In this document: in pieces, positions 31,236-34,200 of the stretch
How positions within the stretch are numbered: position 1 is the first letter of the stretch
How the letters are laid out: every line of letters starts with the position of its first letter
Assembly (NCBI RefSeq): GCF_007744515.1
Contig: NZ_CP036268.1
Location: forward strand, 248,001 to 312,000
Direction of reading: 5' to 3'
Source: Stratiformator vulcanicus
GTDB taxonomy: Bacteria; Planctomycetota; Planctomycetia; Planctomycetales; Planctomycetaceae
DNA length: 64,000 nucleotides
The notes under the pieces: generated by a model
The model's input: only the letters and a program-made list of their open reading frames with translations
Databases searched by the model: none
Told to the model about the DNA's origin: nothing
Position numbers and translations under genes: made by a program

Positions 31236-34200
31236 TTAAGACGGCAGCATTTCCGCCCATTCCTGGATCGGTTTGACCCGGGGTTGGGGGTCGGCGTGCA
31301 GGGCTTCTAAAGCGTCGACAACCGCGATGCAGCCGGGGATGGTCGTGACGCAGGGGACGCCGTAGGCAACCGCGGCGGAACGGATACGGCCTTCGTCCGT
31401 GCGGCTGCCGCGGCCCGACGGCGTATTAAAGACGAATTGCACGTCGCCGTTGGCCATGAAGTCGAGCAGGTTCGGCCGGCCTTCCTGAACCTTCTTAACG
31501 GTTTCGACCTCGATGCCGTTTTCGCGAAGTAACGCCGCGGTGCCGGCGGTCGAGATGATCTTAAGACCGAGTTGCCGCAGCCGACGGGCCGGTTCGATCA
31601 TTGCCTGCTTGTGGTTCTTCGCCATACTGATGAAGACCGTGCCCTCGGTCGGCAGCGACGTCCCCGCCCCGATCTGGCTCTTGGCGTAGGCCATCGGGAA
31701 CGATTCGTCGATTCCCATGACTTCACCGGTGGAACGCATCTCCGGGCCGAGGATGATGTCGACGCCGCTGAACCGCTGGAACGGGAAGACCGCTTCTTTG
31801 ACCGAGTAATAAGGGGGGATGATCTCGCCGTCGATGTTCTGTTCGGCGAGCGACACCCCTGCCATCACCTTCGCCGCAACTTTCGCAAAGGGCCGCGCCG
31901 TCGCTTTGCTCACGAACGGCACCGTCCGCGAGGCCCGGGGGTTCACTTCCAAAACGAAGACTTCGAACTGACTCTCGCCACTCGACTCTGGCCTCTCGCC
32001 TTTTTTTACCGCGAACTGCACATTCATTAATCCGCGGACCTGCAGTTCCTCAGCCATCTTTCGGGTCGCGACCTTAATTTCATCGATGACCGACTGAGTC
32101 AATGAATGCGGCGGCAGGGCACAGGCGGAGTCGCCCGAGTGAACGCCGGCTTCTTCGATATGCTCCATCACCCCGCCGACGACCGTCGTTTCGCCGTCGC
32201 AAACCGCATCGACGTCGACTTCGATCGCGTCTTCCAGAAATTTATCAATTAAGACGGGACGATCAGGCGACGCGTCGACCGCTTCGTCCATATAGCGGGC
32301 AATCTCTTCTTCCGAGTAGCAGATCTCCATCGCCCGGCCTCCCAGAACATAGCTGGGCCGCACGAGGACGGGAAAGCCGATTCGCTCTGCGGCGCTGCGA
32401 GCGCCTTCGGTATTGGTAGCGGTGCCGTTCGGCGGCTGCTTTAAACCGACCCGATACAGCATCTGTTGGAACCGTTCCCGGTCTTCGGCCGCGTCGATCA
32501 TTTCGGGCGATGTGCCGATGATATTAATCCCGGCCTGCTCAAGTCCGCGCGCCAGATTTAACGGCGTCTGCCCGCCGAATTGGACGATCACCCCGTCCGG
32601 ATCGAGCCGGTCGCAGATATTAAGAACGTCTTCGAGAGTTAATGGTTCGAAGAATAGAAGGTCGGACGTGTCATAGTCGGTCGAGACCGTCTCCGGATTG
32701 GAGTTGACCATGATGCTTTCGACGCCGAGTTCGCGAAGTGCGAATGAGGCCTGACAGCAGCAGTAGTCGAACTCAATTCCCTGGCCGATCCGGTTCGGAC
32801 CGCCACCGAGAATCATGATGCGAGGCTGCGCTTCGCGTTCGAGTGTCGAGAGTCGAGAGTTGAGCGTCACGCCCGGAATCTCTTCACGCTTTAGAACGCG
32901 GTTCGAAACCGACGGATGCAATGCCGATGCGGCGACGTCGGGGTCGCCCCCTTCCATCTTCGACCTTCCCTCCTCGGCCGACTTTCGCGGTGGCGTTTCG
33001 TCTTCGCTTTCATAGGTTGAATAGTAATAAGGCGTAAATGCTTCGAATTCGGCCGCACAGGTATCGACCTGTTTAAAGGTTGCTTCGATGCCGTGTTGTT
33101 CTCGGCGGTTGCGCCGAACCTCAAGCTCGGTCGAGCCCCACCACAGGGCGAGTTGCATGTCGGAGAAACCGGCCCGCTTTGCTTTTCGGATTAACTCGGG
33201 TGTGGCGTCCTCCAACCGACCGATGCTGCGAATCTCGTCCTCGATCTGCACGATCTGTTCGAGATTGTCGAGGAACCACGGATCGATGTCGGTTAATTCA
33301 TGAATCTCTTCAACCGTCATGCCGCCCTTCATCGCATAGCGGATATAGAAGATGCGATCGCAGTTCGGCACCGACAGTTTTCTCTTAATCTCTTCCGGCA
33401 GCGGTTGCTTCGCCGTGCCCCAGAGGTCTTTCTTGCCGCCGCCGAGGCCGAAGTGGCCGGTCTCCAAGCCCCGCAGCGCCTTCTGCAACGACTCTTTAAA
33501 GGTTCGGCCGATCGCCATCGTTTCGCCGACCGATTTCATCTGCACCGTCAGCGTGGGGTCCGCCTCGGCGAATTTCTCGAAGGTCCAGCGGGGGATTTTT
33601 GTGACGACGTAATCGATCGTCGGCTCGAAGCAGGCGAGCGTCTCGCGGGTGATGTCGTTGGGAATCTCATCGAGCCGATACCCCACGGCGAGCTTGGCGG
33701 CGATCTTGGCGATTGGAAAACCGGTCGCTTTCGAGGCGAGGGCCGAACTCCGCGAGACACGCGGGTTCATCTCGATGATCACCATCCGACCGCTGTCGGG
33801 ATCGATCGCGAACTGCACGTTGGAGCCGCCGGTCTCGACGCCGATCTCGCGCATGCAGGCGAAGGTCGCATCCCGCATCCGCTGATATTCTTTGTCGGTC
33901 AGCGTCTGAGCCGGGGCGACGGTGATGGAGTCGCCGGTGTGGACGCCCATCGGGTCGAGGTTCTCGATCGCACAAATGATGACGCAATTGTCTTTGCAAT
34001 CGCGCATCACCTCCATCTCGTACTCTTTCCAGCCGAGGATCGACTCTTCGAGCAGCACTTCGCTCACCGGAGAAAGCTTCAGCCCGCGGCGGACCATCTC
34101 CTCGAATTCTTCGCGGTTGTAGGCGATGCCGCCCCCCGCCCCGCCGAGCGTGAAACTCGCGCGGATGATCACCGGCAGCCCCACCTCGCGGACCGCCGAC

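Follow-up and report, generated by a model that had tools for sequence, protein, structure and literature searches.

Loops of planctomycete CarB and other enzymes as probable sites of recurrent capture of IVS-type foldback elements

Two segments by which carbamoyl-phosphate synthase large subunit (CarB) of Stratiformator vulcanicus exceeds the length usual among its relatives are, we propose, the remains of small foldback elements, and we put at roughly 0.7 the probability that protein loops recurrently capture such elements, which resemble the intervening sequences (IVSs) of 23S rRNA. A first-pass annotation of the window (the whole stretch of DNA analysed, 64 kb) had seen a CTCTCG-type element in frame at two spots of carB and had concluded that a housekeeping enzyme absorbed repeat DNA as peptide. 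That conclusion stands: array inserts are in frame, and other repeats occupy the same CarB loops in relatives. The heptamer unit, the inverted pairs, the reused loops, the inserts in ValS, MnmG and HisF and the bracketing of S23p/IVP genes all go beyond that first observation. Given the inverted pairs and the IVP bracketing, remains of foldback elements are a better description than repeat DNA.

Both CarB sites carry arrays with a period of seven (Table 1). Site 1 consists of the units ACTCTCG CCACTCG ACTCTGG CCTCTCG, which form a single G-rich arm on the coding strand and whose minus-strand reading is the ten-residue peptide at CarB residues 890-899. Site 2 has the coding-strand units ACGCTCA ACTCTCG ACTCTCG ACACTCG and encodes a 13-residue stretch of the linker. 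The lag-7 signal has p=0.003 at site 1, which is the floor of 300 shuffles, and p=0.003 in the linker insert. A 19-base heptamer pattern, allowed up to three mismatches, has three matches in the 64-kb window, all at sites 1 and 2, against 0.05 expected, in agreement with an in-frame element at both spots. A looser 14-base pattern, also with up to three mismatches, gives 15 matches in the window against a mean of 10.65, which is not above chance, and the claim of capture therefore rests on arrays and not on single units. The linker had also been ascribed in part to the element. A heptamer array does lie within the extra linker, but the clear array makes up only ~13 of the ~49 extra residues, and the remainder is not recognisably repeat.

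Table 1. Coordinates of carB and of the heptamer features within the window.
Feature	Position	Strand	Remarks
carB, carbamoyl-phosphate synthase large subunit	31239..34667	-	1143 aa, ATG at 34667; NCBIfam NF003671 E=0; PDB 1bxr match; from translation
Site 1 heptamer array, hairpin turn in second CarB half	31970..32001	+	TRF period 7, 4.3 copies
Site 2 C-rich heptamer array, linker joining the CarB halves	32839..32868	-	TRF period 7, 4.3 copies
Entire extra linker segment	32829..32987	-	residues ~561-613; 61-residue linker against 12-13 in 40/58 rows
Candidate degenerate G-rich arm, 5' part of linker insert	~32951..32976	-	putative; seen in the sequence
Third heptamer array, non-coding	63120..63154	+	mutM ATG at 63157, 2 nt beyond the array end

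Relative to E. coli CarB, with numbering counted along the alignment, the first insert separates residues 835 and 836 and the second follows ~residue 558, between the halves. An AlphaFold2 model has site 1 exactly in the turn that joins predicted strand 878-889 to predicted strand 901-909; pLDDT is below 50 at residues 893-897 and at linker residues 572-611. Presumably the insert peptides are made with the protein and remain part of the mature enzyme. Neither insert contains a significant inverted repeat (p=0.512 in the hairpin, p=0.598 in the linker). The linker insert shows no fold excess (z=+0.2), and the 42-nt hairpin segment folds with z -3.0 against simple shuffles even though it has no significant inverted repeat. 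As an opposite arm, the G-rich stretch towards the 5' end of the linker insert could at most be a degenerate one. Because its own inserts lack an inverted pair and those of four relatives have both arms, the focal CarB keeps relics, as solo or decayed arms, and the relatives have the fuller form.

The gene carB is present in 60 of 61 family genomes, that of S. vulcanicus counted, and these 60 genomes yield 61 CarB rows, in 59 of which the hairpin and in 58 of which the linker is readable. The best named matches of the S. vulcanicus CarB are from Planctomycetota, the phylum having been assigned from this similarity. A seven-residue turn is found in 36 of the 59 readable rows and a linker of 12-13 residues in 40 of the 58, so that CarB here does exceed the usual length at both spots, as had been claimed. 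At least five extra residues occur in 16 hairpin rows and 15 linker rows. Period 7 at p<=0.01 is seen in 5 of these 16 long hairpins and 6 of the 15 long linkers, compared with 5 of 270 control windows of the same length from the same genes, and an inverted repeat at p<=0.01 in three long hairpins and five long linkers, compared with 2 of 270 control windows. These are the only two internal positions with insertions of at least five residues in a 45-row alignment. In relatives the same residues are not encoded by conserved DNA: most rows are short at these positions, and others have different repeats there.

Period 7 is present at both sites in S. vulcanicus (G000 in our labelling) and in genomes G020, G012, G014 and G038, and at the linker in G035, where it is not significant at 0.01 in the hairpin insert, SPLPPGEGPGVRA. 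It is not found in 10 of the 16 long turn rows, nor in some of the linkers, among them the ones in G026, G047 and G043. The linkers of G047, G026 and G011 align with that of G038 and are without repeats, which fits decay; independent origins are also possible. In a quick 53-row CarB tree built with the inserts excluded, 19 of whose 50 inner branches are poorly supported, the six period-7 genomes are scattered and require at least five changes, counted among the 17 long-insert rows, three of them forced by well-supported branches. S. vulcanicus and G020 are sisters on this tree and have a 16-nt word in common at the hairpin site, so the insertion there probably predates their split. The inserts of G012, G014, G020 and G038 have an inverted layout, with a G-rich array, a spacer and a C-rich array, and they are predicted to form stable hairpins in the mRNA, their folds reaching z -3.1 to -8.8 against simple shuffles. 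The 201-nt linker segment of G012 is predicted to form an mRNA hairpin of down to -113 kcal/mol, and the two G035 inserts fold with z -2.3 and -3.0.

The repeating unit is partly specific to each genome. Pattern counts were made in 16 genomes picked with CarB inserts in mind, so that the frequencies are not family-wide rates, and they are counts of overlapping 14-mers, in which a long array scores several times. Exact TCCATCC pairs have 87 of their 88 matches in G012, where the unit is at both CarB sites, and all six TGGACAC pairs are in G014, two of them within its carB interval. CTCAACC pairs number 289 in G012, 54 in G020, 36 in G038, 14 in G026 and at most 7 in any other genome, and the unit is present in CarB of G020 and G038. 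ACTCTCG is not private: it has 22 matches in G012, 12 in G021, 11 in S. vulcanicus and 10 in G020, against 6 for the reversed control in S. vulcanicus.

The anatomy of the element is clearest in G012. Both arms are present at 16 of 20 fetched loci and one arm at the other 4, these loci having been partly picked for nearby matches on both strands. About four GGATGGA units are followed by a spacer and about four TCCATCC units, or GGTTGAG and CTCAACC are arranged likewise. These elements span ~63-176 bp and are dispersed. Arms within one genome have a common unit, and the G012 spacers appear unrelated by eye. At one locus (L234) an AACATTG-type pair is nested within a GGATGGA pair.

Nor is CarB the only enzyme affected. 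Long loops are found in 10 of 14 ValS rows, 8 of them with period 7, in 10 of 14 MnmG rows, 7 with period 7, and in 10 of 15 counted HisF rows, 4 with period 7; the ValS and HisF loops were delimited by alignment columns, and the HisF of G012, interrupted by a contig end, was excluded. ValS contains CTCAACC in G020 and G038 (the G020 array is outside the tally, its loop being no longer than baseline) and CTCAACG in G026, MnmG of G021 contains GATTGCG...CGCAATC, and HisF of G036 contains CTCGACC. The same loops of CarB, ValS, MnmG and HisF have thus been reused by different repeats. We also observed, by eye, a second dispersed motif, ~CGCTGACGCTTCCGGCTCGC (peptide PGADASGS), which precedes or replaces heptamer arrays at loci L204 and L206 and in the ValS loops of G014 and G026, and which is in frame in ValS.

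It is conceivable that such arrays simply grew in place by local polymerase slippage, in tolerant loops and between genes, with no mobile element involved. Direct arrays of variable copy number would be expected from slippage, as would in-gene inserts with one arm, such as those in CarB of S. vulcanicus and in ValS of G026 and G041, both of which have one arm only; a length of 7 nt has been proposed to suit it, and heptamers are cited as the commonest longer class of simple repeat in most genomes (both as cited in PMC4679880). Slippage would not, however, leave an inverted pair of arms on the two sides of an unrelated spacer, nor place a genome-private unit at two sites within one gene, and we consider it unlikely.

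In the S. vulcanicus genome (5.23 Mb, one contig) the element is present elsewhere, as the first-pass annotation had expected it to be. The two-unit word ACTCTCGACTCTCG, with up to one mismatch, has 47 matches, compared with 20 for the reversed pattern, and these collapse to 28 places, the 28th being carB in the window. A simple array finder, run without a shuffled control and also returning two weak three-unit matches elsewhere in the window, detects arrays of at least three units at 20 of the 27 places other than carB. It detects none of that size at the other 7 (L186, L188, L190, L192, L194, L195 and L203), so part of the 47-match list is chance, although at L195 one array missed by the finder is visible by eye. 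Beyond carB, housekeeping genes contain 4 of the 27 arrays examined at 21 loci: valS has two, and hisF and mnmG have one each. A few further arrays touch gene ends, for example that of an ackA-like gene at L187. The genes that we take to be mutM, mutS, ubiD and ackA were named from the sequence. Arrays called inside the mutS, mutM and ubiD reading frames lie upstream of the apparent conserved start, and the array before mutM is in non-coding DNA, where it had first been placed.

Other repeats in the window deserve mention in their own right. In the gap downstream of carB (30340-30650) a longer non-coding repeat with cggacggtgtccgtgccactcgg is seen by eye, in two copies that have diverged; short heptamer-like arrays of GGCTGTC / GACAGCC, apparently intergenic, lie at 18397-18431 and 30764-30783; and an 18-bp unit, GTTGAGCGGAACTAATCT, is present in 2.7 copies without mismatch at 17648-17696.

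The placement of the arrays raises the possibility that they are kept for a function, as regulator sites or as structured mRNA near gene starts, with the coding copies as by-products. Nine of the 27 arrays end no more than 12 nt before a start codon, compared with 13 of 210 random positions at the same loci (p=1.6e-4), and a like placement is reported for TAACTGA repeats in Beggiatoaceae (PMC4679880). Yet the unit changes between related genomes, and inserted elements that avoid coding DNA could yield the same placement, which makes retention for function decidedly unlikely as the origin of the arrays.

Inverted arms of this kind also enclose genes. Between 1085582 and 1086023 of the S. vulcanicus genome an S23p/IVP gene (L262), which adjoins the ackA-like gene, lies within a pair of ACTCTCG arms; its protein matches TIGR02436 with E=6.3e-36, and a match to the DGR accessory protein Avd is below cut-off. 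CarB site 2 has a 16-nt word in common with the flank of this gene. As a separate observation, the last residues of the ackA-like gene (VSRVSSVESPGQ; L187 / L262) overlap an arm of this IVP element.

Because these ACTCTCG arms enclose an IVP gene, such genes were tested more widely, using 220-bp flanks and counting an inverted match at a score of at least 12. The sample comprised 37 of 67 family matches, 27 of 29 new phylum loci (L411, at a contig end, and L413, too short, were left out) and 14 of 25 plasmid records, 13 cyanobacterial and 1 from Azospirillum. Inverted flanks accompany 28 of the 37 family genes (PF05635) compared with 5 of 400 random segments, 26 of the 27 phylum genes compared with 5 of 404 random segments, and 13 of the 14 plasmid genes compared with 5 of 280 shuffled flanks, and period 7 is seen on both sides in 15/37, 13/27 and 11/14, respectively, against 0 in each control; the family and phylum controls are random, mostly coding segments, the plasmid controls are shuffles, and neither kind consists of other small genes. 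Slippage would not be expected to set such arms around IVP genes. Among 61 loci of the family and phylum sets, 51 have such inverted arms; their median span is 461 bp, and the left arm has more G than C in 43 of the 51. The 20 IVP loci searched gave no match to rRNA or any other Rfam family. PF05635 occurs in 12 of the 16 genomes picked for the pattern counts, in 102 of 199 phylum genomes and in 0 of 14 control genomes. Among the seven IVP genes of S. vulcanicus itself, two (L271 and L272) are without clear arms and L270 is without period 7.

We also ranked 12 genomes by the longest word that each CarB insert has in common with their IVP flanks, a comparison in which genomes richer in IVP loci had more chances. 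The insert's own genome ranked first for 4 of 12 inserts (the S. vulcanicus linker, the G020 hairpin and both inserts of G014) and did not do so for both inserts of G012, G038 and G035, the S. vulcanicus hairpin and the G020 linker. Taken together, the association of heptamer arrays, as arms of IVS-type elements, with S23p/IVP genes is well supported in the groups sampled; as a mechanism it is inferred.

On cyanobacterial plasmids, three IVP genes flanked by inverted arms (L424, L425 and L430) were seen within CRISPR-Cas operons, where their neighbours on the two sides are cas6 and cas4, or else cas10 and a cmr3-family gene. PF13366 was considered as a second cargo of period-7 arms and rejected, with period 7 on both sides in 0 of 19 cases (20 loci fetched). 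Inverted arms do flank 14 of these 19 genes, with other periods, and hence are not unique to IVP genes. In relatives (L287-L306) the inverted flanks of PF13366 (PDDEXK_3) genes often consist of 8-10-bp units (CACGGAGG, CACAGATGAA), and such flanked genes may represent a sister class of element whose cargo is different.

That the elements are ordinary MITEs moved by an end-recognising transposase, with the IVP gene as a passenger, is very improbable: the inverted terminal repeats that mark MITEs (the two arms at those 16 of 20 G012 loci, partly picked for this), the short spans and the dispersed G012 copies are as expected, and fusions of such elements into reading frames are known (PMC10969869), but the tandem-heptamer ends vary from genome to genome and among the elements of a single genome, so that a sequence-specific transposase fits poorly.

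Comparison with known systems indicates where the foldback elements belong. The S23p gene (PF05635/TIGR02436) that characterises rRNA IVSs lies between the ends at L262, IVP loci having been chosen for it, and the CarB inserts have no gene. Stem-forming borders are present at the IVP loci and in the CarB inserts of several relatives and not in the focal CarB. There is a likeness to the Coxiella 23S rRNA IVS, which is 428 nt long (against the median of 461 bp here), with complementary ends, an S23p ORF and, just 5' of it, GACAGAT heptamers, the first of them carrying an RNase III site; its authors regard the S23p as decaying and apparently not produced in vivo (PMC4990558). That IVS lies in rRNA (PMC4990558), whereas the search of 20 IVP loci here turned up no rRNA and gene-less copies are in protein genes. 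Because those 20 IVP loci lack an Rfam match and the CarB inserts are within a protein gene, we do not file these elements as rRNA IVSs.

Rickettsia palindromic elements (RPE) were reportedly first described by Ogata et al. They are ~150 bp long, fall into ten families and lie in frame in unrelated genes, so that in-frame capture of repeats itself has precedent (PMC10969869). The elements studied here are likewise short repeat DNA in frame in unrelated genes (CarB, ValS, MnmG and HisF); they differ from what is described for RPE (PMC10969869) in having heptamer-array arms, a unit that varies by genome and loops reused by different units. Enterobacterial RU elements are also small mobile repeats that keep the frame within annotated genes, but their units are 103-168 bp, and the abstract does not mention heptamer arms (Delihas 2007, PMC2759123).

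Heptamers themselves have been described elsewhere. The GGGAATC repeats of Xanthomonas mostly have four units, form paired inverted sites (70 and 75 cases) and are mostly intergenic, near gene ends, all as in the arrays here; they are read as quadruplex-forming, however, and the terms 'S23', 'four helix' and 'intervening' are absent from the available text, which states that these heptamers are generally not tied to mobile elements, their neighbourhoods being more stable (Rehm et al. 2015, PMC4692102). The TAACTGA repeats of Beggiatoaceae and cyanobacteria resemble our arrays in lying mostly just upstream of start codons, with some in ORFs; they differ in being direct repeats with one inverted case, and most of their in-ORF copies lie in hypothetical proteins or at the ends of proteins; the terms 'four helix' and 'intervening' are again absent from the available text (PMC4679880). 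In a limited literature search, S23p/IVP genes were linked with heptamer arms only in the accessible text of the Coxiella IVS paper (PMC4990558). In the literature compared here, as far as its available text goes, heptamer repeats and S23p IVSs had each been described without an agreed origin or function.

We propose that a foldback element, in which an array of roughly four 7-bp units is followed by a spacer and then by the array inverted, would form a hairpin and insert widely through planctomycete genomes. Selection would remove most coding copies, and flexible loops would tolerate those for which frame and stop codons permit; the arms would subsequently decay into ordinary sequence. Because 7 and 3 are coprime, such an array can remain in frame: three successive units give one and the same cyclic seven-residue peptide whichever frame is used, and for units that are stop-free on both strands, such as ACTCTCG, only a total length divisible by three is required. 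The full-size element would hold an S23p/IVP four-helix-bundle gene between its arms, as 23S rRNA intervening sequences do, and the short forms would be gene-less derivatives of these IVP-bearing elements. We infer that the elements move and that either the IVP or the hairpin drives the movement. Because the arm sequence is variable, recognition would be of structure rather than of sequence, and the IVP is the obvious candidate for the mover of the element. If transcripts were processed by RNase III as in rRNA, coding copies would be cut, and this would be a cost. More tentatively, the heptamers of cyanobacteria, planctomycetes, xanthomonads and Beggiatoaceae and those of rRNA IVSs may all be the arms of one structure-driven mobile element with an S23p/IVP four-helix-bundle cargo. 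Such an element would be independent of its arm sequence, so that each genome could renew its own unit, and its gene-less copies would be a continuing source of new loops in essential enzymes.

The association of S23p/IVP genes with heptamer arms ties together two things that had been described separately, in a form that can be tested, and it suggests where bacterial heptamer repeats may come from. For annotation, it would account for odd peptides inside otherwise good proteins, such as PSTLNPQPSTN and GGWRMEDGG. Through these inserts, non-coding DNA that is probably mobile has become peptide in essential enzymes, the same loops being used repeatedly, so that raw material and decayed product may be compared across relatives.
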